Of a stretch of 64,000 bases of DNA, positions 21,583 to 59,360 are shown one piece after another. The position numbers and the translations under genes were made by a program. The stretch is from Zygnema cylindricum (Eukaryota; Streptophyta; Zygnematophyceae; Zygnematales; Zygnemataceae), in NCBI GenBank assembly GCA_037447655.1, contig JBBHKE010000188.1:62001-126000 (forward strand), given 5' to 3'. The notes beneath the pieces are model-generated. The model saw nothing but the letters and a program-made list of their open reading frames with translations. It ran no database searches and was not told where the DNA came from. Every line of letters begins with the position of its first letter. Position 1 is the first letter of the stretch.

Positions 21583-22885
21583 TGTTGATATTTGTGTATT
21601 TTCTAGGTCTGTATTAGGATAGAAAAAGAGTTGAGGCGGTCTGCCTCTAACTCCCCTTCCCAAGCCCCCACACTTGTTGTAGACACTGAAGGCTGGAAAG
21701 GGAGCTAGAGCCATGGCTACCTAAACTCTCTAGAGAAGACAGGGGGTGGATTAGGTAGATTTACCAAAATGTACTTGACGGACCCAGGAATTGATCCTGG
21801 TACCTGCCGTCTGTCAAACCTCTGAAGCCGTCAGCTTTAACTTTTAAGTCTAGAACTAGTGTTACGATATAGAGGGTTTGATAAATAACTGAATAGTTAC
21901 ACGTAGATTAATTTGTTTAGCGGGAAATAGATATTTAGTACATAGATACAGTTTAACTTAGTACGGAGTACAGTACGGGGACGGAATGGATACCGCGCAT
22001 TTGTTTCGCTATCGAAACAAATACCGCGCACCAAACGGCCGCGATAAATGCCGAGGTCGCGGAACACGTTTTTGGCGTTTGCGGACGTCATCACTCTGAA
22101 TGACACGTGGCGTCATTATACAAGATGCGGAATCTCCGGAAAGGAACATAACAAATCCGGATGTGACAAATGTCACATAATAACATCATCGTACAATTTC
22201 CGTACATAAAGTACTCCGGCACCTATACTTTCTCTACGGTACCGTTTTTTTGACGTGGCATTACTTGGCGCCATGCGGAGGGATAAGATTTGGAAGCAGG
22301 ATTTCCGGCGATTATAAGAGCGAATCCTGATGGGACATGTGTTGACTTTTTAGCCATGTCGTACGATAGCTGTACGAAAGGTACACCGACACCTATACCT
22401 TTATGTACTATACAATAATTTGATTGGTCCCTACCTCAGTACTAGAGGGTTTAGAGAGGGGTTTAGGACTTAGAATATTTCTGGTAGGTAGTTGCCTCTC
22501 CCAGAGAGCACCTTGTATAAATGGCATACTTTGGCCAGCCATAACTATCAATTCAATTGACCATTTTCAGTGATTCTTTTTGCTGCGGACTCCGGTGAGT
22601 CCAAGCTACACATGGATGTAGTCGGTCATACTATTTGCCTGCCAGGGTGGTTGCATTTCTAGGGGAAAGTCAAAGTGGAAGAATGTGTCCAAAACTCATA
22701 TTCTAACTTTGCATTCTGAAACTGAGCACACAGAAAGTCTTATTTCACAGGGGTGAAGCTGTAATGGGGTTCTGATTGTCAAAGGGTCAATCATTTGGGT
22801 TTGTATAAACTTGGAGTCGGCACAATCTAGATTAACTTCTTTTGATCTGCGAATTCTGTGTGGCAATGGAGCCCATAGAATTTCA
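21583..22885 (+). repeat. 5' LTR of copia element E1
   Basis: The LTR begins TGTTGATATTTG and ends TTTCA, followed by the primer site. The element is flanked by the 5-base duplication GAGGA (21578-21582 and 24146-24150). A TATAAAT box is near 22515, CCAAT as ATTGG near 22423, a G-box GACACGTGGC near 22101. A solo LTR of the same family in reverse lies at 38370-39674. Confidence 0.88.
21766..21859 (-). promoter_or_regulatory. tRNA-like module, antisense in the E1 5' LTR
   Basis: On the minus strand: weak A-box TAGACTTAAAAGTTAAAGC, B-box GGATCAATTCC, T-arm CCAGG/CCTGG, 3' strand TCCGTCAA, then TTTT. It corresponds to modules in all other LTRs here. It is the weakest A-box of the set. Confidence 0.5.
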
Positions 22886-22900
22886 GATTATGGGCCCACC
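22886..22900 (+). promoter_or_regulatory. E1 primer-binding site (half-tRNA iMet) over the gag start
   Basis: GATTATGGGCCCACC directly after the LTR matches the complement of the initiator tRNA-Met anticodon stem-loop at 14 of 15 positions. The gag ATG (22890) is inside it. Confidence 0.75.
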
Positions 22901-23915
22901 ATCTAGGGTGCCTATGTTCGATGGAACAGACGTCACTTATTGGGAGTTTACGATGGAGGGGTTGCTTTTCGATAAGCACTTATGGGGAATTGTTTCAGGA
23001 CAAGTGAGGTGTCCGCCACCGGGCTTTGGAGGAGCTCACTATGGAGAATCATCTGGGGCTGCCCAAAAAACCAACCGGAGTTCAGATGCAACGGAAGGTG
23101 AAGGGAAAATCATTACAGTGGAAGAGGAGATAGGGGAGAAGGATAAAGGGAAACCTATGGTGAGGGGAGCTAGGCTCTCGGCTACGGTTCCACTTGTGGG
23201 GGTTATAACTGAACAAAATATTGAAGAAAATGACAGGAATATTTGGGAATATAAAAACACTATAGCAAAACATCTCAAACTTAGATATGTGTCTAAGTCC
23301 ATAGCTATCACTCTTTTAAGTCTAATCAAGTCTTCAGAGATATGGGAAACACCAATTCAGATTTATAAGAGTGAGACTATACAGAGGCAGCAGTTAGTAA
23401 AACAAGAAATAGAGGCCTATGCTTATAAAGGCGGTAGCATGATAGAGTTTTGCAATGATATTGCTGCATTATATGTTGAGCTTTCTAGTGCAGGATATGT
23501 AGAATCTGAGGAGAGAAATATCTATACACTAATCATAAAACTCCCAGATGAGTACGAAGACATCATTTACCGTATGCAGGGAATTGATGTCTCCTCGTGG
23601 ACTTGGAGCATCACCATCGGGATAATACTTGTGAGGGAAAGCACCTTGGAGCTTCGTAGGAGAAGTGACAAGGTGACTGCATTTACAACTGGTGGTTACT
23701 GGCGGAAGCGTGATGTGAGGAACGTCGGCGACGAGCGGAAGCGTGATGAGAGGAAGTAAGACAAAGGTAAACCTTATCGAAACTTCACTGGAAAGAGAGG
23801 GAGAAGAAAAGAAAGGGGAGCTTTCGAAAAAAAAGTTTGCTTCTTTTGTAGAGAACTTGGTCACCATATGGAGGAGTGTCCTCGTTTGGAAGAACTTAGA
23901 AGTTGCGGTGTGAAT
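22890..23915 (+). pseudogene. copia gag of E1, one nonsense codon, pol deleted
   Basis: The frame starts MGPPSRVPMFDGTDVTYWEF, the N-terminus shared by all copia elements of this window (UBN2-type gag). A TAA at 23757 interrupts it. The same frame then continues to a CX2CX4HX4C zinc knuckle at 23838-23879 (CFFCRELGHHMEEC). Directly after, at about 23916, the sequence jumps into the end of the LTR, so protease, integrase, RT and RNase H are missing. The element can only have moved with proteins supplied in trans, or was deleted later. Confidence 0.85.
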
Positions 23916-24145
23916 GAGGGAAAGTCAAAGTGGGTGAATGTGTCCAAAACTCATGTTCTTACTTTGCATTATGTGGTGAAACTGAGCACACAGAAAGTCT
24001 TATTTCACGGGGGTGAAGCTGTAATGGGGTTCTGATTGTCAAAGGGTCAATCATTTGGGTTTGTATAAACTTGGAGTCGGCACAATCTAGATTAGCTTCT
24101 TTTGATCTGCGAATTTTGTGTGGCAATGGAGCCAATAGAATTTCA
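23916..24145 (+). repeat. Truncated 3' LTR of E1
   Basis: About 230 bases equal to the last part of the 5' LTR (from about 22670), with a few substitutions, ending TTTCA before the target duplication GAGGA. The upstream part, including promoter and tRNA-like module, is deleted. Confidence 0.88.
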
Positions 24146-24560
24146 GAGGAGACTAGCCAATCACCGGACGTGTAAAATGTTTACGCGTTGAAATGTCATG
24201 TACGAGCCGCGCGCCTTCAGATAGGCGAGAATCAGATCCGACAAAAACCACCAAAAAATTATGTTGAAGAATGTGGCGTGATGCCTTCATCACCATCCAT
24301 TGTCATTCAAAATTTTTTGCGCCTGCTTTCTTCGAATTTCCTATTTGGTTATGAAATTTTGCAAATTCGTTAAATTTTGGAAGAATACAAATTTGAAATC
24401 TTTTAGAATCTTTGATGACGCTCGCCGTCAAAATAGGAATCAACGTGCATCTAATTGAAAGAAAGCACGTACGCGATAGATTCCATTGCGATATGACCTG
24501 ATGGAGAAGTGAACGCCATATTAATGCCATTAAACATATTCGTACCATTACTATCGGCAT

Positions 24561-24717
24561 TTGATGGAGGTTCACCCTAAGAGAAGAATTCCATTAGGCT
24601 GTCCCAGTAAATGTACGGAAACTTCTACTGGGAGTAGGCATTTGATGGAGGTTCACCCTAAGAGTAGAATTCCATTAGGATGTCCCTGTAAATGTACGAA
24701 AACTTCTACTGGGAGTA
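24561..24717. repeat. 81-base direct duplication of an element junction
   Basis: The junction TTGATGGAGGTTCACCC-TAA-GAG(A/T)AGAATTCC plus about 55 bases following occurs twice (from 24561 and 24642). It duplicates the end of chain element 2 together with the start of element 3. Confidence 0.9.
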
Positions 24718-31470: not shown

Positions 31471-31481
31471 GACCCACCAGC

Positions 31482-31840: not shown

Positions 31841-32239
31841 GTGTATCAAAGCTAAAACCAAAAAAGAATGTTCACTAGTTACAACATCATGTTTCCCATA
31901 GATGAATAACAAGCATACGGTAACACCTTGAGCATAACGAACCATCGCTCTTATGCATAGTCATTTATTGCAAAAGTATAATCGTGTTTTGTATATTGGT
32001 TTTATTTTACATCGTTTTGGCATACATGCTTCACAATAAAGTAAAAAAGAAAATGCAAAAACAATGACTTTAGAGTCATAGACACACAATGCAACGTACT
32101 ACCGCTTTAATACTGTATAGTAACTCTTTACTTCAAAATCCTTACACTCCTTACACTTTCAAAACATGTAAGACAAGCCAAAGCTACCAAAACTACAAAA
32201 CTATGTCACTCCTAAGCTTTAGGATATATTAAAAAAAAA

Positions 32240-34200: not shown

Positions 34201-34239
34201 AAAAAAAGAAGTGAAAAACATCATATATAAAATGGGGTT

Positions 34240-35429: not shown

Positions 35430-36427
35430 GTGTTTTAACGTTCAATACCCGGGTGGGAGATCCCACCTAGGTAGTTTTTAACTAACCCACTTTTAGTCAC
35501 AACCACTGCTGCTCAAGCAAACAAATTGACAATCTGACTACACCCTTGTGCAGTCTGGACTCCTTTGAGTCCGTAGCAAAATGAATCACTGAAAACAGCC
35601 AACCAACCGATAAGTTATGAGGTGGCAAAAATGCCAAATTAATAAACTCTCAAAGAGAGAGGTGGTTGTCTATTAAAAAATGCTAAGTCCTAACCCCTCT
35701 CACAATCCCTATCTACTACAGTACGAACTAATTAAATAACTGTATAGTATAGAAAGGTACTACGGCCGATGTCTTTTCGTTACGGCCTGTGTACGACAAG
35801 GCCACAGAGTGGACGCGTGTCAAGATTCCACAAGCCCATATGTTCCCCGGAATTCTCGCGACCAAATGTTATCCCTCCACGTGGTGCCAGGTCATGCCAC
35901 GTCCAAAATCGCCAAATTGACCAATCCGAGATCTCGGCGGCAATATATATGTCGTTGGATTAAATTCGACATTAAATGTTTGCCGTCGAAACAAATGTTT
36001 GATTCATTTGTTTCGTACGCGATCATGTTCGCACTTTATATTAACTTGTACTGTGTTCCTTCATTCATAATTCAGTTAATCAGTTTCACGATCATAACAC
36101 AGTTTAAGTATTTATCAAACCCTATGTAATTTAACAAACTTCTAAGACAGACCGGTTAGAGCTGACGGCTACACCTTGCTCTGCCAATCGGAGGTTCGAG
36201 TTCTGCCGAACTCAACCTTTTGTTGACAGTGACTTATGTCTCTCTTTAGTCCTACCTATGGAGCTGAGGCAGCCATGGCTCCACTACTCTCTCTCTCTCT
36301 TTCAGTGACTACAACAAGTAGGGGGGATAGAGGAAAGAGGTGGAGGAAGACTGCCTGCGCTTTTTCTTTCTTTTTCTATTAAGCTATTCAGACCTAGAAA
36401 AAACTCCATAAATCTATGATTTCAACA
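35430..36427 (-). repeat. Reverse-oriented copia LTR (E3-like family)
   Basis: Read on the minus strand it begins TGTTGAAATC at 36427 and carries the usual LTR parts: TTTTTTCTAGGTCTGAAT, the GCCATGGCTGCCTCAGCTCC block shared with E3, a tRNA-like module, a CCACGTGG G-box near 35878 and a CCAAT box. The 35430 end is approximate. It directly abuts the truncated pol of E0. Confidence 0.7.
36136..36221 (+). promoter_or_regulatory. tRNA-like module (antisense to its LTR)
   Basis: GACCGGTTAGAGC keeps the 3' half of a tRNA D-arm. GGTTCGAGTTC at 36193-36203 is close to the Pol III B-box. TTTT follows at 36218-36221. The 5' D-stem and the anticodon arm do not pair well, so this is not a normal tRNA gene. 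Confidence 0.55.
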
Positions 36428-37692: not shown

Positions 37693-37788
37693 AAAAGAAA
37701 CTTGACGGACCCAGGATTTGATCTTGATCCTTGTCGTCCTTCGAGTCAAGCAGTAGTCATTAGCTTTATCCTATTAGTCTAAGATCAG
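37693..37788 (-). promoter_or_regulatory. tRNA-like module, antisense in the E0 LTR
   Basis: A-box TAGACTAATAGGATAAAGC, B-box-like AGATCAAATCC, 3' strand TCCGTCAAG, then TTTT at 37693-37696, all on the minus strand. Confidence 0.55.
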
Positions 37789-38369: not shown

Positions 38370-39674
38370 TGAAATTTTATGGGCTCCTTTGCCACACAGA
38401 ATTCGTAGATCAAAAGAAGCTAATCTAGATAGTGCCGACTCCAAGTTTATATAAACCCAAATGATTGACCCCTTGACAATCAAAACCCCATTAAAGCTCC
38501 ACCCTTGTGAATCAAGACTTTTTGTTTGCTCAGATCCACCACAGAATGCAAATTTAAAATATGTGATTTGAATACATTCACCCACTTTGACTTTCCCTTA
38601 GAAATGCAGCCACCCATGAAGGAAAAAACTGACCGACTACACCCTTGTGTAGCCTAGACTCCCCTGCGTCCGCAGCAAAAAGAATCACTAAAAATGGCTA
38701 AGTAAATTAATTGTTATGGCTGGCCAAAGTTTGTCTTTTATACAAGATGCTCTCTAGGAGAGGCAACTACCTACCCAAAATATTCTAAGTCCTAAACCCC
38801 TCTCTTAACCCCCTAGTACTGAGGTATGGACCAATCACATTACTGTATAGTATATAAAGGTACAGGTACCGGTGTACTTTTTGTACGGACATCGTACGAT
38901 ATGGCTAAAAAATCAACACATGTCATCTCCAGACTAGTTCTTATTATCCCCGGAATTCAAACTTCCAAGTGTTATCTCTCCACGTGGCGCTAGGTCATGC
39001 CACGTCAGAAAAACGGTACCGTATAAGAAAGTACAGGTGCCGAAGTACTTTTTGTACGAACTTGTACGACAATGCCATATTGCGACATTTGTCACTTTTG
39101 GATTTGTCATCTTCCGTTCCGAAGATTCCGTAAACCCGTATAATGTTGCCACGTGTCATCCAGAGTGGCGGCGTCCGCAAACTGCCAAATTGTCCTTCCG
39201 CAAAGCCGGCGCTAACCACGGCCGTCCGATTTATTTCGGCATTTAATACGGATCGTCAAAACAAATGTCCGTACTATTTGTTTCGTCCGTACTTTAAAGT
39301 ACAATTGTTTCTATGCCCTATAAACCATAATCCAGTTAAATGCAAAACCCTACTAGATACTAATAAAATATCTACCAAACCCAATACATCTTAGGATTAG
39401 TCCTAGACTAAACGGATAAAGATAATGGCTACGGGTTGCTTGACGGACTGTAGGTTCCAAAATCAATTCCTGGGTCCGTCAAATACCTTTTTGGTAGGTC
39501 TACGAATTCTACACCCTCTCTCCAAAGAGAGCCTAGGCAGCCATGAATCTAGCTCCCTGTCCAGCCTTCAGTGACTACAACAAGTGTGGGAGCTTGGAGA
39601 AGCGAGTTAAAGGCAGAGTGCCTCTGCTCTTTTTCTATACTAAAACAGACATAGAAAATACATAAATATCAACA
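38370..39674 (-). repeat. Solo LTR of the E1 family in reverse orientation
   Basis: On the minus strand it runs TGTTGATATTTATG to TTTCA and matches the E1 LTR throughout. Perfect AATAC duplications flank it (38365-38369, 39675-39679). It sits in the U5 part of the E0 3' LTR. LTR-LTR recombination is the usual origin. Confidence 0.9.
39397..39492 (+). promoter_or_regulatory. tRNA-like module in the reverse solo LTR
   Basis: A-box TAGACTAAACGGATAAAG (39404), B-box-like AAATCAATTCC, TTGACGGAC pairing with GTCCGTCAA (9 bp), and TTTTT at 39488-39492. Confidence 0.55.
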
Positions 39675-39874: not shown

Positions 39875-40931
39875 TGTAGAAATTAATGGTCCATTTTTTA
39901 AGTATTTTCTAGGTCTAAATAGAAATATAGAAAGAAGCCGAGGCAGTCTTCCTCTAACTTCTCTCTCCAACTCTCAAACTTGTCGCAGTCACTGAGAAAT
40001 TGGAGAGGGAGCTAGAGCCATGGCTACCTAGGCCATCCAGAGGTTTACAGGAAATATATATTGGTTAGGGGTTTATTTACTAAAAGGTATGTGCCGGCCA
40101 CAGGATTTGATCCTGGTACCTACCGGCCGGCAGACAGCCGGTAGCCGGTAGCCTTAGGCGTTAGGTGTAGAGCTAGTGTTAAGTACTATATGGTTTGATA
40201 ATTAATTAAACATTATCAGGTAGGATAATTCATTTAACTGTAACTGTTTACGGGATACATAGATCCAGTAATGTAAAAGTACGGACTACGGAACGGATAA
40301 GAAACCAATACCGCGCATTTATTTCTTTAATGAAACGAATATCGCGCATGTATTTATTACGGCTACGTTTAAATGTGAATTTAATCGGACGGCCGGAATT
40401 AACGCTGAGATCGCGGAAGAGGATTTCGGCGGTTTGTGGTCATCGCCACATCAGATGACACGTGGCGGAATGACATTGGATCGCGGCATCTCCGAGGATT
40501 AAGGGAGCGAATCCAGACATACCACGTGTCGACATTTAGGCCATGTCGTACAGTGTCCGTACAGAAAGTACAAGGGTAGCTGTACTTTTGTGTACGGAGC
40601 TGTAATCTGATTGGCTCTGTACATCAGTAGATAGAGTCTATGAGAGAGATAGGACTTAGAAAAATAAAGAGATAGGACCCTCTCTCCCAGAGAGCATTTG
40701 TACAAAAGGTCAACTTTGACCCTCCATAACTAACTGCTCATGGGAGCAAATTCAGATATTTTTTTTGCTATCAACTCAGGGGGGTCTTGCCTTCAGAGGG
40801 GTGAAGTTGGTCAGAGTTATTGTCTGCCAGGGTGGCAGTTGTTTTTGCTGAAACACAAAGGGGTCAGGGTTATCAAAGAGGCTTCTTGGAAGTTGTCCAC
40901 TCTGAGGACTTATGAAGGTCTCAGAGTTTCA
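39875..40931 (+). repeat. 5' LTR of copia element E2
   Basis: 1057 bases from TGTAGAAATT to GTTTCA, the same length as the 3' LTR. Flanks CTTAG (39870-39874) and CTCAG (46339-46343) form a target duplication with one mismatch. It has a G-box GACACGTGGC near 40458, a hairpin near 40560-40600, inverted CCAAT, and GGTCAACTTTGACC just after the TATA position. Confidence 0.9.
40082..40176 (-). promoter_or_regulatory. tRNA-like module, antisense in the E2 5' LTR
   Basis: B-box GGATCAAATCC and TTTT (40082-40085) on the minus strand. The outer stem is TGCCGGCC (40092-40099) with GGCCGGCA (40125-40132), a full 8-bp pairing that replaces TTGACGGA/TCCGTCAA of other families. Confidence 0.6.
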
Positions 40932-40946
40932 GGTTATGGGCCCACC
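40932..40946 (+). promoter_or_regulatory. E2 primer-binding site (half-tRNA iMet) over the gag start
   Basis: GGTTATGGGCCCACC, immediately after the LTR, is complementary over all 15 bases to the anticodon stem-loop of plant initiator tRNA-Met (GGTGGGCCCATAACC). Drosophila copia and yeast Ty5 prime from this part of the tRNA. The gag ATG at 40936 lies inside. Confidence 0.85.
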
Positions 40947-43900
40947 CTCTAGGTTACCAATCTTTAATGCAACTGGCTTCATATACTGGGAAAGTATGAT
41001 GATAGGAGCTCTATGCGAAAAAAGGTTTTGGGGGATAGTGAGTGGACGGTTGGGGCGTCCATCTAGTCTTGAAATTCCTCCAGGATTTGGAGGAAGCAGA
41101 TTCACCAAGAAAGAGGATCCACCTTCAACGGAGGAAACAAAAGAAGGAGAGGTGGTGGACAAAGGAAAGGAGAAGGAGGCTACCACATCAATAGCAACTG
41201 GTCTGGCATTCATGTCACCTATTCCGAGGAACGACGAGAATGATACTGAAACCTGGGACTTCAACAATATGGCGGCAAAGCACTTCATCCTACGCCATCT
41301 CACTCAAAGACTTGCATGTCCTCATTTGCAGGTAGAAAGGGCATCCGATCTTTGGATGGCTCTCATAGAGATGTACCGAAGTGGTAGAATTCAGCAACAA
41401 CAGTTGGCTGATCAGAAAGTTAAGGAGTATGTATACAAAGGGGGGAAGAGTTGGATTTTTGTAATGAGCTTGCTACACTCTTCATGGAGCAAGAGAGTGC
41501 GGGAATAGATTTTAGTGAAAAAGAAAAGGTTAACTGTTTACTGATGAAGTTACCCGATGAGTTACAGAACATAGTCAACCGTGTGCACGACTTGCCGGAC
41601 TCAAGGTGGATATGGAACTCAGTGGTAGGGATGATTCTCGTTCGGGAGAATACGATTGAGATCCGGAGGGGAGGAAAGAGTGGCCAAGCCTTGGCAAGTG
41701 CGACCGATTAGAGGAACAAGGATTCTCGGAAACCGGTCGGAAACTATGGGGGGAGGGAGCAGAAAAATCATACCGATGAGTTCTGACCAAGGGCTCCCAA
41801 AGGTTTATGTCATTTTTGTAAAAAACCTGTGCACTATATGGCAGAGTGCACTAAGCTAACCGAGCTTCGGTTAAAGGAGGGGCAGACCGGTGGTCCCCTG
41901 AGAGGAAGAAAAAAGGCCCTTGTGACACAGGTACATGAGGCGGAATCCAAGGCCGAGGACGATGAGCTCCTTTTAGATGAGGAGTTGGAGGCGAAAAACG
42001 AGGTCGAAATTCCACGAATGCAGAAATGTGCTTACGTTGGATTGAAAGGTGAAGCAGGCTAGATTGTAGATTCAGGTGCCTCCATGCACATGTGTAAGGA
42101 TAGGTACCTGTTCACTAAGATAAGAAATAATCCCAACGTAGAGATAGAGTACGGGGATGGGAGGATAGTCACCACTACTCTTGTAGGATCGTAAAAATTA
42201 AAAGTGTTAGTAGAAGGAAAGACATCCATAGTAACATTCTCCAATGTATTGTTTTTTCGTGAGCTGAACAAAAACCTCATCTCTATATCCGTATTAGATG
42301 ATAAGGATTTTTTTACTAGCACTAGGGAAGGAGTCTTTACTACTAGTCTTGAGGAGGATGTCTATTTCATTGCTGAGAAAGGTAGCCATAAGATGTTTAG
42401 GCTGGTTTTAAGTAATGAAAAGAATAAACTTTATTATGCTGGTGTTCATGATATTATGATGTGGCATAAGAGGCTTGGGCATGTGAATCTAGACAAGTTA
42501 AGAGAGATGAAAAAGATGGGAGTGGTGGAAGGGATTAAGTCCAGTGAGAGTGATAATTTAAGTGATTGTAGTGGATGTGCTCAAGGTAAAACACACATAT
42601 TACCCTTTCCTAAAACAGCCACCTATAAGGGAGAAAAAATTCTAGATCTAGTACACACAGATATCTGGGGACCGATTAAAGTGCCCTGACCGGGGGGGAA
42701 GAGATTTCTGATGACTATCACTGATGATTTGTCTCGGTATTCCCGATTGTATTTTTTGAAAAACAAGTCTGAAGCTCAGGATTGTTTTAGACAATATAAA
42801 GCATGGAGCAAAAAACTCCATGAAACTCCAATCAAGAGAATAAGGAGTTACAATGGTGGAGAGTATACTTCTAACCAATTTGAGGATTTTCTGAGGGAAG
42901 ATGGGGTCCAACACCAAAAGACAGTTCCAGAAAACCCGGAACAGAATGGGGTAGCTGAAAGGTTAAATAGAATACTAAGTGATAGTGCTAGAAGTATGTT
43001 GTCAAATAAGAAGATAGGAAAAAGGTTTTGGGCCGAAGCAATGATCTGTGCTAATTACCTCAAAATAAGAGTTCTTACTTCAGCTATAAAAGATCAAACA
43101 CCTTATGAGAGATGGACAGGCCGGAAGCTAGACATATCTCACTTAAAGGTTTTCGCCAGTCAAGTATTCAGTCTAGATACAGATCGGTCTAATTGGAAGC
43201 TAGATCCTAAAGGAAAACCGGGATACTTATTAGGATAAGATGAGGATGTTAAAGGATATAGAGTTTATGATCTAAAAAGGGAATATAAAATCTTAGTAAA
43301 GCATCTAGTAGTTATGGATGAAGTAAAGTCTGTGGATCCCTTCAAATATGCAAAGTCAGTAAAAATCAGATTTGAGTCAGAAAATTCCGATGACTTTGAG
43401 CTTCCTAACTATCTAGGTTTTAGAGAAGATGACATTCTTGCAGGTACAAATCAGACCGAAAAGGACTCGGCTATGGAAACTCCAGTGACAACTCTACCCG
43501 AAGCGGAAGACATGGTGGAAATTGATTCGGAATCAAGGGATAGGGGAGAAGCCGAGTTTGTTTGAAAGAATCCACGAGAACCATCTATTCCGGCCTCAGA
43601 TTTTGAGGGGGGAAGGAGAAGTAGCAAAAGACTGCAAGAAAAACAGGTTAATAACAAGATAACTAAACTATCTCATGAAAATAAACCTCAAACTTATAGA
43701 GAGGCGATGACTTGTCCAGAAAGAAATCGGTGGAAGACAGCCATCAATGAGGAGATGGCCTCAATTATGGCAGCCGATACTTGGGAGCTGGTGGATTGTC
43801 CACCTAACCGAAAAACCAATCGGTTGTAAGTGGGTTTTCAAATTAAAACTAACCCAGATAACACAATCGAGCGCTACAAGGCCCGACTAGTGGCAAAAGG

Positions 43901-45268
43901 ATTTACACAAAAGGAGGGAATTGACTACGCGGAAATCTTTGCCCCAGTGGTCAGATTTCCCTCCGTCCGCATACTTCTCAGCCTGGCAGCGGCGGAAGAC
44001 ATGGAAGTGCACCAGATGGACATCAAAACAGCCTTTTTGCATGGAGAATTGGAAGAGGAGATCTTCATGCGACAACCCGAAGGGTTTGTGGAAGAAGGAG
44101 AGGAGAGTAAGGTATGTCGGCTGATTAAATCTCTTTATGGTTTGAAACAGGCGCCTCAACAGTGGAATAAGAAGCTTGATGAGTTTCTTACCGGTCTGGG
44201 ATATATCCGGATCAGCTCAGATCACTCAATCTATGTTTTCGAAGATGAGGAAGGTTTTATATTTATTGCAATTTATGTTGATGATTTGCTTATTTTAAGT
44301 AAATCAATGAAAAAAATTAATAAACTGAAAACCAATCTTAAGGGGAGATTTGAAATGAAGGATATGGGGGAAGCAACATATATTTTGGGAATTCAAGTAG
44401 AGAGAGACCGAAAAAGAAAAGTTATAAGATTGACTCAAAAGGAAGCAATATGGAACATGCTTGAAAAATTTCAAATGGATAAAGCTAATAGTTGTACAAC
44501 TCCAATGGAGTTGGAGAAGGGAAGTGAGGGGAGTGAGGAAGAAGAAGTCATAGTCTTAGACGAGGAATTATCTCCTGAAGAATAAAAATTCATGCAGACT
44601 ATTCCATACAGCAAGTAGTGGGAAGTCTAATCTATTTTATGAATTGTACCCGGCCGGATTTAGCTGCAACTGTAGGAGTGCTGAGTAGAAGTCTAAATGC
44701 TCCCACTAAGAGGGATTGGGAGGCAGCTAAAAGAGTCTTTAGATATTTGATAGGAACTAGGGATCTATGGTTGCATTTGGGTGGGGAGAATACTGACATC
44801 ACAACTTGGAGTGATGCCAGTTGTGGTGATGCTCCGATGAGGAGATGCACTTCTGGATATGTATTATATCTGGGTGATGGGGCTTGCTGTTGGAGTAGCA
44901 AACAGCAAAAGGTTATTGCTCAGTCCACCATGGAGGTTGAGTATATGGCCTCTTGCTTTGCTGTAAAAGAATTGATGTGGGTCAAGTCTTTGCTGGGTGA
45001 GCTTGGTCACCTTAAGAGTGGTGTGCAGGATATATTTTGTGGTAATCAGGCAGCAATCGCTATTTTTGCCAATCCTAAACATCATTTTAAAGCCAAACAC
45101 ACGGACATTAGACTGAGCTTTGTTAGAGAGAAAGTAGAAAACAAAATAATCAGTTTAGAGTACCGACCAGATAGTGTGATGGTAGCAGATATAATGACCA
45201 AACCTGTGCCTTCCACTAAGGCAATTTTCTGGAGGGAGAAGTGTGGTCTGAAATTAAAGATTGACTAG
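40936..45268 (+). pseudogene. copia gag-pol of E2, several breaks
   Basis: Order gag, protease, integrase, RT, RNase H, as in Ty1/copia. Gag begins MGPPSRLPIFNATGFIYWES and has a zinc knuckle at 41808-41849 (CHFCKKPVHYMAEC). The protease keeps DSGASMHM, but a TAG at 42060-42062 stands just before it. Integrase (about 42450-43240) has WHKRLGHVN with CSGCAQGK and DWSRY-like DDLSRY. RT has YVDDLL from 44274. RNase H runs to 45268. Breaks include frame changes at about 41500, 41711 and 43800, stops at 42194, 42687, 43236 and 43563, and one near 44583. It is not functional. Confidence 0.9.
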
Positions 45269-45281
45269 AAAATAAAGGGAG

Positions 45282-46338
45282 TGTAGAAATTAATGGTCCA
45301 TTTTTTAAGTATTTTCTAGGTCTAAATAGAAATATAGAAAGAAGCCGAGGCAGTCTACCTCTAACTTCTCTCTCCAACTCTCAAACTTGTCGCAATCATT
45401 GAGAAATTGGAGAGGGAGCTAGAGCCATGGCTACCTAGTCCATCCAGAGGTTTACGCGAAATATATATTGGTTAGGGGTTTATTTACTAAAAGGTATGTG
45501 CCGGCCACAGGATTAGATCTTGGTAATTACCGGCCGGCAGACAGCCGATAGTCGGTAGCCTTAGCCGTTAGGTCTAGAGCTAGTGTTAAGTACTATAAGG
45601 TTTGATAATTAATCAAACATTATCAGGTAGGATAATTCATTTAACTATAACTATTTACGGGAAACATAGATCCAGTAATGTAAAAGTACGGACTACGGAA
45701 CGGATAAGAAACCAATACCGCGCATTTATTTCTTTAATGAAACGAATATCGCGCATGTATTTATTACGGCTACGATTAAATGTGAATTTAATCGGACGGC
45801 CAGAATTAACACCGAGATCGCGGAAGAGGATTTCGGCGGTTTGTGGTCATCGCCACATCGGATGACACGTGGCAGAATGACATTGGATCGCGGCATCTCC
45901 GAGGATTAACGGAGTGAATCCGGACATACCACGTGTCGACATTTAGGCCATGTTGTACAGTGTTCGTACAAAAAGTACAACGGTAGCTGTACTTTTGTGT
46001 ACGGAGATGTAATCTGATTGGTTCCGTACATCAGTAGATAGAGTCTGTGAAAGAGATAGGACTTAGAAAAATTAGGAGATAGGACCCTCTCTCCCAAAGA
46101 GCGTTTGTACAAAAGGTCAACTTTGACCCTCCATAACTAACTGCTCAGGAGAGCAAATTCAGAGATTCTTTTTGCTATCGACTCAGGGGAGTCTTACCTT
46201 CACAGGGGTGAAGTTGGTCAGAGTTATTGTCTGCCAGGGTGGGAGTTGTTTTTGCTGAAACACAAAGGGGTCAGGGTTATTCTAGAGGCTTCTTGGAAGT
46301 TGTCCACTCTGAGGACTTATGGAGGTCTCAGAGTTTCA
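45282..46338 (+). repeat. 3' LTR of E2
   Basis: 1057 bases, preceded by the polypurine tract AAAATAAAGGGAG. It differs from the 5' LTR by scattered substitutions. Confidence 0.92.
45489..45583 (-). promoter_or_regulatory. tRNA-like module, antisense in the E2 3' LTR
   Basis: The best D-arm of the set: CCT-AACGGCTA-AGG in TAGACCTAACGGCTAAGGC. The B-box is decayed (AGATCTAATCC). The outer stem GCCGGCC/GGCCGGC and TTTT are kept. Confidence 0.6.
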
Positions 46339-47185
46339 CTCAGCTCCATAGGCAGGACTGAAGAGTGACATAAGTCACTCTCAAGAAAAGGTGAGTCTGA
46401 CATGACTTAAACCTCTGACCCGCAGAGCAAGGCGTAGCTGTCAGCTCTAACTGGTCTGTCATAGTAGTTCGTTAGACTACATAGGGTTTGAATGCAATAT
46501 AAATAGTCTGAACGAACTTTAATCTTATTAATAGAATTACAGATAAATAACATGGAGGCTAGTTACAATATGGTGCGAACGTGAACTCGCACAAAACAAA
46601 TGTGCCACACATTTGTTTTCAACCGCTAGTATTAAAGCCAGTTTGGATCGGACCGCACGTATAATTATCAAGATCCAGGAATGGCAGCTTTGACGATTTT
46701 TTGGGCGTGACATGACCTGGCGCCACGTGGCAAGATAGCATTGAGAAGTTGGAATCCCGAGGAGCATGAGGACGAGTCCGAAGGAGACAAATGTCCACTC
46801 GGTGACCTTCTCGTACACATGTCGTACAGAAGCGACATCTGCCGTGGTATATTTTTGTACCAAACATTTTTTCTGATTGGTTCGTTCTTTAGTAGATAAG
46901 GGTTGTGAGAGGAGTTTTAAGACTAAAAGAGTTTAGCAGGTATCCGCCTCTCTCTCACAGAGCTTATATAAATCTTAATATCTTTGCCACTTTATAACTA
47001 ATCGACTGCTTGGGCGTTTTATGTGATTTATTTTGTTAATTCAAGGGAGTCAAACTACACAAGGGTGCAGTCCAATTGTCTATTTGCTTGCTTGGGTAAC
47101 AGTGGTCTTAGTTGAAAGTGGATCAGTCAAAAACTGCCTAGAGGCATGCTGAATTAAGTAGTATAAAGGGGGACATAAAATTGCA
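46339..47185 (+). repeat. 5' LTR of E3, right part after the E2 insertion
   Basis: It aligns with the E3 3' LTR from about 58514 to 59360 and ends TTGCA. TATATAA near 46966 is the likely TATA box, with CCACGTGGC near 46724 and ATTGG near 46876. The left part is cut off by E2, leaving only GCCATGGCTACCTTAG before 39875. Confidence 0.82.
46386..46475 (-). promoter_or_regulatory. tRNA-like module, antisense in the E3 5' LTR
   Basis: ACCAGTTAGAGCTGACAGCT with B-box-like GGTTTAAGTCA and TTTT at 46386-46389 on the minus strand. More decayed than its partner at 58559. Confidence 0.45.
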
Positions 47186-47200
47186 TGTTATGGGCCCGCT
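47186..47200 (+). promoter_or_regulatory. E3 primer-binding site (half-tRNA iMet), mutated
   Basis: TGTTATGGGCCCGCT matches the initiator tRNA-Met anticodon-loop complement at 12 of 15 positions. The gag ATG is at 47190. Confidence 0.65.
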
Positions 47201-48322: not shown

Positions 48323-49314
48323 TGTTGAAATAAAAGGTATTTTCTAGGTTAGTTAAAAGATTTAAATAAGAGCAGGAAAAAGCAGAGACGGCCTGCTTCT
48401 CGCTTCTCTCTCTAGCCCCCATACTTGTCGTAGTCACTGAAGGCTGGAGAGGAAGCTAGAGCCATGGCTGCCTATGCTCCTTCTAAAGTCAGAAGGCAGA
48501 TCCTTGGTAAACTTACCAAAAGGATTGACGGACCCAGGATTTGATCCTGGTACCTACCATCCGTCAAAGTAGCTGTTAGTCTTACCCTGTAGTCTAAGAC
48601 CAGTGCTGAAGTATATAGGGTACGATAGCTACTTAAAGATGACGAAAAATATAAGTTTAATTTACTGACAAACGAACCACAATCACACAGACACAGTTAA
48701 AATAAAATTACACCGGAAATGTACTACTTGTATTTTTAACGGCTATAAATTAAGGCCGACATTAATCTAACGACGGAGAAAGAAGCCGGCATCGCGGAAT
48801 GGTCGATTTGGCGGTTTTCGGTCATAACCACAATGGGTGACACGTGGCAGCATGACATTGGATGACGGCATCTCCGGGACATATTATGGCGAACCCGGAT
48901 ATGGCAGGCGTCGTCTTTCTGGCCATATCGTACAATGGCCGTACAGAAAGTACTTCGGACCAAGTACCTTTCTGTACTGTACACTCAATTGATTGGTTCC
49001 GTACATGAGTAGGAGAGGGTTTGGAGAGGGGTTTAGGACTTAGAAAATTAGAGGTAGCCGCCTCTCTCTCAGAGAGCTTTTGTATAAAAGGGTCATCTTT
49101 GACCATTGATAATTAACTACTCAGGGGAGCAAATTCAAGGATTCTTTTTGTGGCAGACTCAGGAGAGTCAGCCCTTCCAAAGGGTGCAGTCTGGTCAGTC
49201 TGTATTCTGTCAGGGTGTCATCAATATTGAGACAAAGCTTAAAGAACTGAGGTTATCCTAGAGGCTTCTAGCAAGCTGCTTACTCTGAGTACCTAGAGAG
49301 GTCTCAGAGTTGCA
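48323..49314 (+). repeat. 5' LTR of copia element E4
   Basis: 992 bases, TGTTGAAATA to TTGCA, the same length as and nearly identical to the 3' LTR. Perfect TGATT duplications flank E4 (48318-48322, 55731-55735). TATAAAAG near 49082, inverted CCAAT near 48992 and GACACGTGGC near 48839 form a standard promoter. Confidence 0.95.
48518..48603 (-). promoter_or_regulatory. tRNA-like module, antisense in the E4 5' LTR
   Basis: A-box TAGACTACAGGGTAAGAC, B-box GGATCAAATCC 49 bases further, T-arm CCAGG/CCTGG, outer stem TTGACGGA (48525-48532) with TCCGTCAA (48560-48567), TTTT at 48518-48521. Confidence 0.62.
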
Positions 49315-49329
49315 AGTTATGGGCCCACC
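49315..49329 (+). promoter_or_regulatory. E4 primer-binding site (half-tRNA iMet) over the gag start
   Basis: AGTTATGGGCCCACC, 14 of 15 to the initiator tRNA-Met anticodon-arm complement. The gag ATG is at 49319. Confidence 0.82.
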
Positions 49330-52300
49330 CTCTAGGGTGCCCATATTCAATGGGACTGGGTTCATCTACTGGGAGGGTATGATGATGTGAGCCCTATGTG
49401 AGAAAAGATTTTGGGGAATAGTGAGTGGGCGAGTGAAGCGCCCATCCGGCCCTGCTATTCCTCTAGGGTTTGGAGGAAGCAAATTTGGTAGGAAACCAGA
49501 TCCACCGTCATCAGAGGAATCACAAGACGGAGAAAGCATCTTGATGGAAAAAGGGAAAGAAAAAGAGAAATCCACACCTATAACAACCGGATCTGCTTTC
49601 ATGTCTCTTATTCCGAGGAATGAGGAGAATGACATTGATACCTGGGACTACAACAACATGGCAGCCAAGCATTTTGTCCTCCGTCATCTCACACAAGGAC
49701 TCGCAGGTCCTCATTTGCAGGTGGAAAGGGCATCCGATCTGTGGGATGCGCTTATAGAGATGTACCGTAGCGGTACTATTCAGAAAACAAAAGCTAGCAG
49801 ACCAAAGGATCAATGGAAACTTTCACAAAGGAGAGAAGATGCTCGATTTCTGCAATGAGCTGGCTTTACTCTTCATAGAGTTAGAGTGTGCTGGAAAAGT
49901 AGAAACCGAGAAGGCAAAGGTACATTGTTTACTCATGAAACTACCCGATGAGTATGAGAACATTGTAAACCGGGTACAGGATCTACTGGACTCCATGTGG
50001 GTATGGAATTCAGTAGTTGGAATGATTCTCGTCCGAGAGAATACAATCGAAATCCGAAGGGGAGTTAAGAACGGACAAGCCTTGGCGGCTGGAGCAAGTT
50101 GGAGAAACAAAGATTCACGGAAACCCCTTGGAAGTCATTGAGGAGAAGACCTGAAAAATCAATTCGATGAATCCAGAACGAGGGGACCAAAGGGGCTTTG
50201 TCACTTTTGTAAGAAACCCGGGCATTACATGGCAGAATGCACCAAACTGACCGAGCTTCTGATAAAGGAGGGGCAGACCGGGGGTCAAACACGAGGGAAG
50301 AAAAAGGCACTTGTCACACAGGTACTCGAGGAGGAATCTGATGAGGAGGACGACGAACTTCTTTTGGATGAGGAGCTGGAGGCAAAAACAGAAGTCGAAA
50401 TTCCACGAAAGCAAAAAAATGCTTTCGGTGGACTGAAAGGTGAAGGAGGCTGGATTGTGGGTTCAGGTGCATCTATGCACATGTGCAAAGATAAGCATCT
50501 GTTTACTAAGCTGAGAAAGATCCCTACAGTAGAGATTGAATATGGGGATGGGAGGGTAGTGACCACTACTTATGTAGGATCGGTAGATCTGAAAGTTGTA
50601 GCGGAGGGAAAAACCTCAATAGTAACGTTCTCCGATGTATTGTTTATTCCGGAGTTAAACAAGAATTTTATCTCTATGTCTGTATTAGATGATAAAGGAT
50701 TTGAAACTAGTACCAGAAAAGGAGTCTTCACAGCAAACTTTGAGGAAGATGTGTATTTAACTGTTGAGAAAGGTAGCCAAGGAATGTTCAGGCTTGCTTT
50801 AAGTAATGAAAAACTCAAACTTTACTATGCTGGTGTCAGTGATATTATGTTGTGGCATAAGAGACTTGGGCATGTGAATCTAGAAAAGTTAAGAGAAATG
50901 AAAAAGTTGGGAGTAGTTGAAGGGATACGCTTTCGGGAAAATGATAATGTAAGTGATTGCAGTGGGTGTGCTCAAGGTAAAGCACACAGATTACCATTCC
51001 CAAAGGAAGCAACTTATAAAGGAGAAAAAGTTCTTGATTTGGTACACACGGACATTTGGGGACCGGCGAGAGTACCATCACCCGGAGGCAAAAGATTTAT
51101 GCTAACCATTACTGATGATTGGTCCCGGTACTCCCGAGTATACTTTCTGAAAAATAAATCAGAAACTCCGGAGTATTTCAAACAATATAAGGCATGGGTC
51201 GAGAAACTTCACGAGACCTCAATAAAGAGAGTAAGAAGTGACAATGGAGGAGAATATACCTCCAATCAGTTTGAGGAGTTCTTAAGGGAGGATGGTGTTC
51301 AACATCAAAAGACAGTTCTAGAAAACCCGGAACAGAATGGTGTTGCCGAGAGATTGAATAGGACACTAAATGATAGTGCACGGAGTATGTTGTCAGATAA
51401 AAGGATAAGAAAAAGATTTTGGGCAGAAGCTATGAATTGTGCAAATTATTTGAGAAACAGAGTTCTAACTTCGGCGGTGAAAGGCCAAACTCCATATGAG
51501 AAATGGACTGGCCGAAAACCAGATCTATCTCATTTAAAGGTTTTCGGTAGTAAAGTCTTCAGTTTAGATACAGATAAATCAAACTGGAAACTAAATCCTA
51601 AAGGGAAACCACGATACTTGCTAGGATATGATGAGGATGTAAAAGGGGTATATAGTATATGATCTAAAGAGAGAAGATATAATATCAGTAAAACATCTGG
51701 TAGCTATGGATGAAGGGAAGTCGGTATATCCCTTTAAATCCTCAAAACTAGTCAGAATCAGAGTTGAGTCAGACAATTCTGATGACTTTCATCTCCCTAA
51801 CTATCCGGGTTTTCAAGAAGACGATACTCTTGCAGGTTCAGATGATATCCTTGCAGATTCAAAACAGACAGAGAAAGACTTGAACTTGGAAACACCAATG
51901 ACACAAGCGGAAGACGTGGTGGAAACGGATATGGATCCGAGGGACAGGGGAGAAGCCGTGGTGAATCGAAAGAATCCACGAGAACCATCTATTCCAGCCG
52001 CAGATTTTGAGGGAGGGAGAAGAAGCAGCAAAAGGCTTCAAGAGAAACAAGTTAATAACAAGGTAACTAAACTATCTCACCCGGATGAACCTCAAACATA
52101 TGAAGAGGGAATGAACTGTCCGGAAAAAAAACCAGTGGAAGACGGCCATCAATGAAGAGATGACTTCAATCATGGCGGCTGATACATGGGAGCTGGTGGA
52201 CTGTCCACCCAATAGAAAACTAATTGGATGTAAGTGGGTTTTCAAACTAAAACTGAATTCGGACAATACAATTGAGCGGTATAAGGCTCGGTTAGTGGCG

Positions 52301-53531
52301 AAAGGTTTTACTAAGAAAGAGGGAATAGACTACGAAGAAACCTTCGCTCCGGTAGTCACATATCCCTCGGTACGAATACTTCTCAGTCTGGCAGCTGTAG
52401 AAGACATGGAAGTCTACCAGATGGACATAAAAACAGCGTTCCTACATAGAGAACTAGAGGAGGAGATCTTCATGCGACAACCGGAAGGATTCGTGGAACA
52501 AGGAGAGGAAAGTAAGGTATGCCGGCTAATCAAATCTCTCTATGGTTTGAAACAGGCGCCCAGACAGTGGAACAAGAGACTTGATGAGTTCCTTACCAGT
52601 CAGGGATACTTTCGCATCAGTTCAAACCACTCAATTTATGATTTTGAAGATGAGGAAGGTGTCATCTTTATTGCAATTTACGTTGATAATCTTCTTGTTC
52701 TAAGTAAGTCATTAAAGAAAATTAACAAACTTAAAACAGATCTAAAGGGAAGATTCGAAATGAAAGATATGGGGAGGCTATATATATTTTGGGAATACAA
52801 GTAGAGAGAAATAGGAAAAAAAAGATTATTAGACTAACTCAGAAGAAGGCAATTGGAAACATGCTGGAAAAATTTTAGATGAACAAAGCCAACAGTTGCA
52901 CGACTCCCATGGATCTAAAGAAGGGAAGTGAGGGGAGTGAGGAAGGAGACATCCTAATTCTAGATGATGAACTAGGTCCAGAAGAGAAGAAGTTTATACA
53001 GACTATTCCTTACAGACAGGTAGTGGGCAGTCTGATATATTTTATGAATTGTACCAGACCGGATTTGGCAGCAGCTATAGGAGTGCTAAGTAGGAGTCTG
53101 AATGCTCCTACCAAAATGGATTGGGAAGCAGCAAAAAGGGTCCTCAGATATCTCATAGGAACTAGGGATCTATGGCTGCATCTGGGTGGGGAAAACACTG
53201 ACATCATCACTTGGAGTGATGCCAGCTATGGGGATGCTCCGATGAGAAGATGTACATCAGGATATGTGTTGTATGTGGGGAATGGTGCTTATTGCTGGAG
53301 CAGTAAGCAGCAAAAGCTCATTGCTCAGTTTACCATGGAGGCAGAGTATATGGCATCTTGCTCTGCTGTGAAGGAATTGATGTGGGTTAAATCCTTGCTT
53401 GGTGAATTGGGGCATCTTAAGAGTAGAATTCAGAGAATATTATGTGATAATCAAGCAGCAATTGCAATTGCTGCTAATCCCAAACATCATTTTAAAGCAA
53501 AACACATGGACATAAGACTTAGCTTTGTTAG

Positions 53532-54578
53532 TGCAATTCTGTGTCCTCCATTGGACCACAAAATACAGGAAGCCTCTAGATAGTATTTAACTAACCCACT
53601 TTAAGCCACAACCACTGCTGCCCAAGAAGGCAAACTGACAATTTGACTGCACCCCTGTGTAGCGTGGACTCCCCTGAGTCCGTAGAAAAAAGAAACACTG
53701 AAAACGGCCAACCAGGCGATAAGTTATAGGATGGCAAAGATGCCAATTTATACAAACTCTCTGAGAGAGAGGACTATCTACCTAAATTTTCCTAAGTCCT
53801 AGTTTTTCCTAATTCCCTCTCACAGCTCCTATCTACTGCCTGTACGAACCAATCACAAAACTGTATAGTACTAGAAAGTACTACTGCCGATGTACCTTCT
53901 GTACGGCCTCTGTACGACAAGGCCATAAGTGGACGCGTGTATACTTTCCACTCATCCGTACGTTCCTCGGAATTCCCGTGACCGAATGATGTCTCCCCAC
54001 GTGGCGCCAGGTGATGCCACGTCACTAAATGCCAAAGTGACCACTCCGGGATTTCGGCGATGATGTGCGCCGTTGGATTATATGCGAAACGTAATCTTGG
54101 CCGGAATAAATACTTGCGCGATATTTGTTCCGATGTAGAAATAAAATGCGTGGTATCCGTTTTGAATTAGCGTCGTACGACGTACTTTATAAAACTGTAT
54201 ATATGTACGCCGTAAACAGTTTTAGTTAAATGAACTTTATCCTTTCGAACTAAGTATATATCTATCACATACCATAGCACTTAGCATTGGTCCTAGTCTA
54301 TTAGGATAAAGCTGACCGCTACCGGACGATTTGACGAACCGCAGGTACCGTGATCAAATCTCTGGTCCGTCAAGTATATTTTTAGTAACCTACTAAAAAT
54401 AGCTGTCTGTTGAACTAAGGCAGCCATGGATCAACCTCTCTCTCTTTCCTTCAGTGACTACAGCAAGTATGGGGGCTAGAGAGCGGAGGTGGAGGCAGGC
54501 TGTCCGTCCTTTTCTTTTTCCTTTTATAAAACCATATTTAAACCTAGAAAATACTCTAGAAATCTATAAATTTCAACA
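53532..54578 (-). repeat. Solo LTR in E4 RNase H, reverse orientation
   Basis: Minus strand TGTTGAAATT to TTGCA, 1047 bases, with perfect GTTAG duplications (53527-53531, 54579-54583) that interrupt RLSFVRE of RNase H. The family is close to the LTR at 35430-36427. Confidence 0.93.
54287..54383 (+). promoter_or_regulatory. tRNA-like module in the solo LTR
   Basis: A-box TAGTCTATTAGG fits the Pol III consensus; the D-arm can pair at 3 of 4. B-box-like TGATCAAATCT, 3' strand TCCGTCAA, TTTTT at 54379-54383. Confidence 0.58.
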
Positions 54579-54738
54579 GTTAGAAAAAAGGTGGAGAACA
54601 AAATAATAAGTCTAGAATACAGACCAGACAGTGAGATGGTGGCAGACATGATGACCAAGCCGGTACCTTCTCCTAAATTAATTTTTTGCAGAAAGAGATG
54701 TGGACTTAAAATCAAAAGTGACTAGAAAATAAGGGGAG

Positions 54739-55730
54739 TGTTGAAATAAAAGGTATTTTCTAGGTTAGTTAAAAGATTTAAATAAGAGCAGGAAAAAGCA
54801 GAGGCAGCCTGCTTCTCGCTTCTCTCTCTAGCCCCCATACTTGTCGTAGTCATTAAAGGCTGGAGAGGAAGCTAGAGCCATGGCTGCCTATGCTCCTTCT
54901 AGAGTCAGAAGGCAGATCCTTGGTAAACTTACCAAAAGGATTGACGGACCCGAGATTTGATCCTAGTACCTACCATCCGTCAAAGTAGCTGTTAGTCTTA
55001 CCCTGTAGTTTAAGACCAGTGCTGAAGTATATAGGGTACGATAGCTACTTTAAAATGACGAAAAAGAGAAGTTTAATTTACTAACAAACGGACCACAATC
55101 ACACAGACACAGTTAAAATAAAATTACACTAGAAATGTACTACTTGTATTTTTAACGGCTATAAATTAAGGCCGACATTAATCTAACGACGGAGAAAGAA
55201 GCCGGCATCGCGGAATGGTCGATTTGGCGGTTTTCGGTCATAACCACAACGGGTGACACGTGGCAGCATGACATTGGATGACGGCATCTCCGGGACATAT
55301 TATGGCGAACCCGGATATGGCAGGCGTCGTCTTTCTGGCCATATCGTACAATGGCCGTACAGAAAGTACTTCGGACCAAGTACCTTTCTGTACTGTACAC
55401 TCAATTGATTGGTTCCGTACATCAGTAGGAGAGGGTTTGGAGAGGGGTTTAGGACTTAGAAAATTAGAGGTAGCCGCCTCTCTCTCAAAGAGCTTTTGTA
55501 TAAAAAGGTCATCTTTGACCATTGATAATTAACTGCTCAGGGGAGCAAATTCAAGGATTCTTTTTGTGGCAGACTCAGGGGAGTCAGCCCTTCCAAAGGG
55601 TGCAGTCTAGTAAGTCTGTATTCTGTCAGGGTGTCAGCAATATTGAGACAAAGCTTAAAGAACTAAGGTTATCCTAGAGGCTTCTAGCAAGCTGCTTACT
55701 CCGAGTACCTATGGAGGTCTCAGAGTTGCA
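54739..55730 (+). repeat. 3' LTR of E4
   Basis: 992 bases after the polypurine tract AAAATAAGGGGAG, ending TTGCA before TGATT. Confidence 0.95.
54934..55019 (-). promoter_or_regulatory. tRNA-like module, antisense in the E4 3' LTR
   Basis: Same module as at 48518, with substitutions in the A-box (TAAACTACAGGG) and B-box; TTTT at 54934-54937 is kept. Confidence 0.55.
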
Positions 55731-55735
55731 TGATT

Positions 55736-58349: not shown

Positions 58350-58362
58350 AAGATAAAAGGAG

Positions 58363-59360
58363 TGTTGAAATCAATAGATTTGGGGGTATTTTCTAGGTCT
58401 GAAGATTAAAAATAAAAAAAAGCATAGGCAGCCTGCCTCCACCTCCTCCCTCTAACCCCTATACTTGTTGTAGTCACTGAAGGAAAGAGAGGGCAGTGGA
58501 TCTATAGTTCCCTCAACTCCATAGGTAGAACTGAAGAGTGTCATAAGTCACTCTCTACAAAAGGTGAGTTCGGCAAGACTCGAACCTTCGATCGGCAGAG
58601 CAAGGCTTAGCCGTCAGCTCTAACCAGTCTGTCGTAGGAGTTTGTTATGCTACATAGGGTTTGAATACTATATAAATAGTGTCAAAGAACTTTAATTCGA
58701 TTAACGGAAATAGAGATAAAAAACATATAGGCTAATTATAATATGGAGCGAACGTGAACCCGCACAAAACAAATGTACCGCACATTTGTTTTCAACGGCT
58801 ACTATTAAAGCTGGTTTAGATCCGACGGCACGTATGATCGTCGAGATCCCGAAATGGTCGTTTTGGCAATTTTCGGGCGTGATATGACCTTGCGCCACAT
58901 GGCAAGATAGCATTGGGAAGCGGGAATCACGGGGAGCATGAGGACGAGTCCTAAAGAGAGAGACGTCCCCTCCATGACCTTATCGTACACAAGTCGTACA
59001 AAAAAGATATCGGCCATGGTACATTTCTGTACTGTATAGTCTTCTGATTGGTTCGTACTTCATTAGATAAGGGTTGTGAGAGGGGTTTTATGACTTATAG
59101 AGTTTAGGAGGTAGTCGCCTCTCTCTCATAGAGCTTATATAAATCTTGGTATCTTTGCCACTTTATAACTAATCGCCTGGTTGGGCGTTTTCTGTGATTC
59201 TTTTTGATGTGGACTCATGGGAGTTCAGAGTGCATATGGGTGCAGTCATATTGTTTATTTGCCTGCTTGGGTAGCAGTGGTCTTAGTTGAAAGTGGATCA
59301 GTAAAAAACTGGCTAACTGCTTTCTAAATTCTGTAGTCCAATGGGGGATACAGGATTACA
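58363..59360 (+). repeat. 3' LTR of E3
   Basis: Starts TGTTGAAATC after AGATAAAAGGAG and ends GGATTACA. It aligns with the E3 5' LTR part at 46339-47185. TATATAA near 59145. Confidence 0.88.
58559..58643 (-). promoter_or_regulatory. tRNA-like module, antisense in the E3 3' LTR
   Basis: ACTGGTTAGAGCTGACGGCT then B-box GGTTCGAGTCT, 50 bases after the position equivalent to tRNA base 8, and TTTT at 58559-58562. This is the closest B-box to a genuine tRNA. Confidence 0.62.

Follow-up and report, generated by a model that had tools for sequence, protein, structure and literature searches.

The stretch of DNA analyzed here (64,000 nucleotides of Zygnema cylindricum, contig JBBHKE010000188.1, positions 62,001 to 126,000 of the forward strand; hereafter the window) contains eleven long terminal repeat (LTR) copies of copia retrotransposons, each carrying a transfer RNA (tRNA)-like module on the strand opposite to the LTR (Table 1). 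Modules were delimited as units that begin seven bases ahead of the A-box T and finish with the last base of the TTTT. The unit starts match exactly the eleven positions listed in an earlier note on this DNA, and the antisense orientation given there was found in 11/11. As the note had also described, a T run follows the B box: TTTT is present in 11/11, starting 24–28 bases past the B-box start, and lies between the A and B boxes in 0/11. The order of the boxes was as described, but their spacing was not, as the B-box start lies 49–57 bases from the A-box T instead of 49–50. The reading that accounts best for the modules, to which we assign a probability of about 0.4, is an antisense RNA polymerase III (Pol III)-type unit in the unique 3′ (U3) region of the copia LTRs.

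The LTRs, which are about 1 kb long, were compared by self-blastn and aligned using MAFFT. All 11 copies were joined by blastn and are homologous along most of their length, with identities between pairs outside the module of 0.51–0.97, so the earlier description of the LTRs as otherwise quite different does not hold. As judged from the alignments, the LTRs form one homologous lineage of diverged copies of a single copia LTR, so the modules represent about eight related families and do not count as eleven separate cases. TG...CA ends are recognizable in most copies, and a TATA-like stretch lies far downstream of the module. Two LTR pairs are the 5′ and 3′ LTRs of single elements (E, approximately 39875–46338, and G, 48323–55730), and Pfam matches to copia gag, integrase and reverse transcriptase lie between LTRs. 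A tree built from all 11 LTRs placed C, F46, F58 and H together (support 100), and likewise D, G and E (support 100; D with G, 50). LTR H (53532–54578) looks recombinant, with alignment columns 180–600 resembling the A/D/E-type families and the remainder resembling C and F; since the mosaic spans all these columns, a swap of the module alone was rejected. Modules of type 2 (A, B, D, E, G, H) have ATCAAAT- or ATCAATT-like loops (ATCTAAT in the decayed E45), and those of E3 type (C, F46, F58) have TTCGAGT- or TTTAAGT-like loops. Most statistics were calculated with eight representatives (A, B, C, D, E39, F58, G48, H), omitting the partner LTRs E45 and G54 and the truncated F46, which belongs to the F58 family; the site-rate analysis took all 11.

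Table 1. Coordinates of the antisense modules and of the primer-binding site (PBS) of element E, numbered from the first letter of the window.
Feature	Position	Strand	LTR or element	A box	B box	TTTT	39-nt hairpin	Remarks
Module A, type 2	21766–21859	−	LTR 21583–22885 (+)	21834–21852	21787–21797	21766–21769	21777–21815	
Module C, E3 type	36136–36221	+	minus-strand LTR ~35467–36427	36143–36161	36193–36203 (GGTTCGAGTTC)	at end		
Module D, type 2	37693–37788	−	partial LTR from ~37508 (+)	37763–37781	37714–37724		37704–37742	
Module B, type 2	39397–39491	+	minus-strand LTR ~38370–39674	39404–39422	39460–39470		39442–39480	
Module E39, type 2	40082–40176	−	5′ LTR of element E	40151–40169	40103–40113 (derived from unit)		40093–40131	hairpin with compensatory pairs
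Module E45, type 2	45489–45583	−	3′ LTR of element E	45558–45576	45510–45520		45500–45538	
Module F46, E3 type	46386–46470	−	5′-truncated LTR ending ~47185 (+)		decayed, GGTTTAAGTCA			
Module G48, type 2	48518–48603	−	5′ LTR of element G	48578–48596	48537–48547		48527–48565	
Module H, type 2	54287–54382	+	minus-strand LTR ~53532–54578	54294–54312	54351–54361		54333–54371	
Module G54, type 2	54934–55019	−	3′ LTR of element G	54994–55012	54953–54963		54943–54981	
Module F58, E3 type	58559–58643	−	LTR ~58363–59360 (+)	58618–58636	58576–58586 (GGTTCGAGTCT)			
PBS of element E	40932–40946	+	element E					complementary to anticodon half of an assumed plant initiator tRNA-Met sequence; similar sites at 22888, 47187, 49316

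The B-box core and the T run evolve slowly. B-box positions G53, T55, C56, A58 and C61 agree in a mean of 7.6 of 8 families, compared with 6.16 for LTR columns and 8.0 for the T run; B-box positions 52, 54, 57, 59 and 62 average 5.4 of 8. Conservation of the B box and T run together was significant against random columns (p = 0.0002), against the pattern shifted to other places along the LTR (p = 0.0034), in five of six alignments (p ≤ 0.0004) and on site rates (p = 0.0001). The T run is invariant and adjoins poorly conserved columns (181–220, 0.28–0.44). Over columns 220–265, C is identical to the six type-2 families at only 0.31–0.53, and H, otherwise closest to C and F, is identical to C at only 0.31 near the B box; the B-box core and T run persist across both types. 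The earlier note had named free drift of the boxes and the T run among families as speaking against its proposal; in the window, the B box and T run do not drift in this way, while the A box is at the LTR average.

The antisense strand fits the T-loop/B-box pattern (T55 in 11/11, C56 in 10/11, A58 in 11/11, T60 in 11/11), and the mirrored sense-strand site has a B-box score of only 4–6 of 10. By these scores, tRNA-likeness is specific to the antisense strand, and it is this strand-specific pattern, together with the invariant T run, that leads us to favor a Pol III-type unit. B boxes contain GGTTC in 2/11 (C, F58), GGTTT in 1/11 (F46) and NNATC in 8/11, with A-box scores of 4–7 of 8. In 7/11 copies (tied in D, E39 and G54), neither strand of the same LTR has a better B-box match, the other four modules ranking 2, 3, 4 and 7; in 7/11, the A box ranks among the best 5% of the LTR that holds it. 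The combined score for A box, B box and T run exceeded that of 200 dinucleotide shuffles of the same LTR for C (0.010) and F58 (0.020). With a simple threshold (A ≥ 5, B ≥ 7, spacing 48–58, TTTT nearby), 9/11 modules passed (B and H failed). The same loose signature occurs in 18 other clusters in the 64 kb, as would be expected were the modules ordinary U3 cis-elements (inverted repeats, transcription factor binding sites) that resemble tRNA boxes by chance. The LTR has eight runs of at least four invariant columns, the T run among them; these also fit that explanation, as do inverted repeats of equal or greater strength elsewhere in most LTRs (the module's own is strongest in only 2/11, B and H). 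It does not predict variable and invariant positions that follow a T-loop pattern on one strand and are accompanied by a T run, and we regard it as quite unlikely. Separately, lookalikes of the A box, B box and T run with B-box scores of 9 of 10 lie outside LTRs at approximately 19713–19790 (+) and 12816–12740 (−).

In the type-2 modules, a 39-base hairpin corresponding to an acceptor stem and a T arm can be drawn without insertions or deletions in 8/8 copies. Pairing in helix 1 is 94.6% for each of the two strands; in helix 2 it is 77.5% for the antisense and 82.5% for the sense strand. In three pairs both partners are changed: E has two of these, in helix 1, and H has one, in helix 2. The covariation score was reached by 1/500 shuffles and the number of double-changed pairs by 117/500 (antisense) or 89/500 (sense), in a control that ignores relatedness. 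At least six acceptor pairs formed in minimum-energy folds of the unit for 4/8 copies in antisense and 7/8 in sense, and the full hairpin (at least six acceptor pairs plus all five T-arm pairs) formed in 1/8 and 3/8, respectively. Inverted repeats abound in these LTRs, so little weight is placed on this hairpin, and a special hairpin architecture (IR1-AAAA-IR2) was rejected on account of the equal or stronger repeats elsewhere.

Upstream of the modules, AT-rich DNA with TATA-like and CAA motifs resembles that of plant tRNA genes and may be counted for a Pol III unit; in flowering plants these genes are reported to have AT-rich upstream DNA, CAA within 50 bases in ~80% and within 10 bases in 36%–45%, and T runs in ~70% (PMC11700998). 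Here, the 50 bases upstream of the unit are 66%–76% AT, compared with LTR means of 56%–58%, and 4%–17% of windows in the same LTR are equally AT-rich. A TATA-like match, loosely defined and scored without a control, is located at −35 to −28 in 9/11 (not G48 or G54), and CAA is present in the upstream 50 bases in 8/11, also scored without a control. Directly upstream of the modules at 36136, 37693, 46386 and 58559, the antisense strand contains AAACCCTA, which we take to resemble the plant telo-box.

A number of results weigh against an antisense Pol III-type unit. All evidence comes from about eight related families in one window. As a block, the module is no better conserved than its surroundings: 20-column windows over columns 221–310 have 0.51–0.68 identity, within the range of the rest of the LTR. 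Conservation of the A box does not exceed the LTR average (p = 0.65; 0.44–0.49 across alignments; 0.53 on rates); a manual A-box alignment, being biased, was kept out of these statistics. For the B box alone, p was 0.017–0.023 in five alignments, 0.30 in the sixth and 0.014 on rates; the sixth alignment also lost the joint signal of B box and T run (p = 0.12), and the T run had been added to the conservation test after being seen, a bias that this window does not allow to be corrected. Combined motif scores of the other nine modules fell at 0.095–0.88 against shuffles, and the best antisense match in the LTR of module B is not at the module. No tRNA was recognized in the window by ARAGORN (0) or at the Rfam gathering threshold (0), and none was among Rfam matches at E ≤ 10 in 21580–60000 or in two single modules. 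The sense fold preserves the hairpin better than the antisense fold does, and no common tRNA-like RNA fold was seen on either strand (z-scores of −0.2 to −3.8 against mononucleotide shuffles). Upstream, only one copy of 11 has CAA within 10 bases of its unit, and the missing control for the TATA-like match counts on the same side. The earlier proposal of an antisense tRNA-like Pol III unit is partly supported: the B-box core and T run are constrained and the T-loop pattern is specific to the antisense strand, but the A box is not constrained, most copies do not exceed shuffles and no common fold was seen. An ordinary tRNA gene was rejected because ARAGORN and the Rfam covariance models recognize none, in agreement with the note.

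The degenerate A box and the unremarkable block conservation would also fit an inert relic, an old antisense insertion of a short interspersed nuclear element (SINE) or tRNA gene in the ancestral LTR, inherited without present function. SINE insertion into LTRs has been proposed as a source of tRNA-like LTR sequences (PMC10886601), and within elements E and G the 5′ and 3′ LTRs are slightly less alike in the module than in the remainder (identity 0.91 vs. 0.95 in E and 0.95 vs. 0.97 in G). A relic predicts constraint on neither the B box nor the T run, yet both are selectively conserved, and we consider this explanation somewhat unlikely.

If the Pol III-type reading is correct, the ancestor of a half-tRNA-primed plant copia lineage would have gained an antisense tRNA-derived segment (of tRNA-gene or SINE type) approximately 200–290 bases into U3, and the lineage would have kept a Pol III-type core, in which a B box and a T4 terminator accompany a degenerate A box. 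This core would bind TFIIIC and direct synthesis of a short antisense RNA of approximately 85–100 bases, beginning near the A box and stopping at the T run, within U3. The RNA might act through its complementarity to the U3 of the genomic RNA; alternatively, the Pol III complex might serve as a barrier at the LTR edge. A conserved antisense Pol III promoter in LTRs of autonomous-type copia elements would represent a different route to regulatory RNA or edge marking.

PBS and T-arm comparisons were made using an assumed plant initiator tRNA-Met (iMet) sequence that does not come from this genome. At 22888, 40932 and 49316, 14 or more exact bases of the PBS match the anticodon half of this iMet; at 47187, 11 do. 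In the sense RNA, a 22-base stretch of U3 at the module is complementary to iMet positions ~44–65 (variable loop and T arm). This pairing (−25.6 to −34.3 kcal/mol) is the best T-arm site of the LTR in six of the 11 copies (A, B, D, E39, G48, H), where the best site elsewhere gives −18.1 to −24.1 kcal/mol; the module is not the best sense site in C, F46, F58, E45 or G54. An antisense control also pairs strongly (−26.8 kcal/mol for A, −27.5 for G48), because the T-arm stem is self-complementary. In tests restricted to LTR positions 100–420, decoys with permuted stem and linker equaled the module in 0/300 for A, B, D, E39 and G48 and at frequencies of 0.057 for H, 0.96 for C and 0.93 for F58. Generic T-loop decoys did so at frequencies of 0 (A, E39, G48), 0.003 (B), 0.023 (D), 0.097 (H) and 0.99 (C, F58). 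Relative to the assumed iMet, the complementarity is specific in 5/8 families, borderline in H and absent in C and F58; that the predicted sense RNA of five of the six type-2 families is specifically complementary to its T arm is a new observation.

Such complementarity raises the possibility that the module is a second primer-binding segment, in which sense U3 pairs with the iMet T arm while the PBS pairs with the anticodon half of the same tRNA. There is a precedent in Ty3, where the iMet T arm pairs with U3 (PMC5371799), and if the complementarity is real, the bipartite-primer design of Ty3 would extend to half-tRNA-primed copia elements. A second primer-binding segment predicts the specificity for iMet and covers five or six families; a Pol III-type unit covers all eight and predicts the T run. 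Pairing with the primer leaves both the T run and the acceptor arm unexplained, part of its energy comes from the self-complementary stem, two mismatches (one at T60) are common to all six type-2 families, and the 22 bases are not unusually conserved, with 9.2% of 22-column windows equal or better. In addition, a half-tRNA primer may not retain the T arm, and, the families being related, the observation counts about once. Given these points, its absence from the E3-type representatives and the use of an assumed tRNA sequence, we judge a second primer-binding segment unlikely.

The two ideas could be combined: a Pol III-transcribed antisense mini-tRNA of acceptor stem and T arm, made from U3 and resembling the iMet T arm, would pair with the same U3 site as a self-made decoy. 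By making it, the element would rival its primer at the second part of a bipartite PBS and so limit its own copying. This is very improbable, and is made less probable by the better preservation of the hairpin in the sense RNA. As an observation on the PBS itself, it contains an ATG at 22888, 40934, 47188 and 49317 (ATGGGCCCACC or ATGGGCCCGCT, encoding Met-Gly-Pro-...). This ATG may start gag, in which case PBS and start codon would overlap.

Among known systems, Pol III-type promoters in LTRs of short non-autonomous elements have been shown for Cassandra and proposed for Helenus (PMC10886601). Helenus terminal-repeat retrotransposons in miniature (TRIMs; TRIMp3; Kojima, 2024) are like the elements described here in having a tRNA-like LTR sequence with A and B boxes that is mostly not a functional tRNA, for which a Pol III promoter is proposed, and most fungal Helenus also have anticodon-loop primer sites, with iMet dominant. 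They differ in being short, non-autonomous and devoid of coding capacity, whereas here LTRs of about 1 kb accompany copia gag, integrase and reverse transcriptase, and in the role proposed for the tRNA part, their own transcription (sense strand inferred), whereas here 11/11 are antisense. Their boxes are TRGCY and YGG (A) and GGTTC (B) (PMC10886601); here GGTTC is present in C and F58. Cassandra TRIMs share the Pol III-type promoter in the LTR, but theirs is derived from 5S rRNA and transcribes the non-autonomous element itself (PMC10886601); Rfam found no 5S rRNA match here, at gathering threshold or at E ≤ 10 over 21580–60000.

As predicted for most type-2 families, U3 of Ty3 pairs with the iMet T arm and a separate 5′ PBS uses the same tRNA; Ty3 primes from the acceptor end, whereas here the PBS matches the anticodon half and E3-type families have no T-arm complement (PMC5371799). 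Half-tRNA-Met PBSs are reported in plants for the copia groups Osser, Bryco and part of Gymco-II, so this PBS type hints at a moss, green alga or gymnosperm as host; the likeness to these groups is in PBS type, and the accessible part of their description mentions no tRNA-like LTR module (PMC6317226). Bovine leukemia virus has a type 2 Pol III promoter in an integrated retroelement, with convergent transcription, an arrangement like the one proposed here, but is an animal retrovirus with an experimentally demonstrated microRNA cluster (PMC4992882). Among the titles and opening parts of abstracts listed from an open-licence library, none described an antisense module of tRNA-like or Pol III type in the LTRs of autonomous copia elements. 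Relatives were not detected by protein or DNA pattern in viral and prokaryotic contig collections.

The flanks contain matches to a Rieske domain, a BCS1-like AAA ATPase and, below cut-off, myo-inositol oxygenase. An open frame at 18257–19057 (−) has no Pfam match; by eye, we take it to resemble the N terminus of plant D-glycerate 3-kinase. Positions 24556–24717 are a tandem duplication of 81 bases, 95% identical. Within the LTRs, TCGTAC and GACTTA blocks (alignment columns 866–871 and 987–992; near 22359 and 22467 in copy A) are invariant in 8/8 families.

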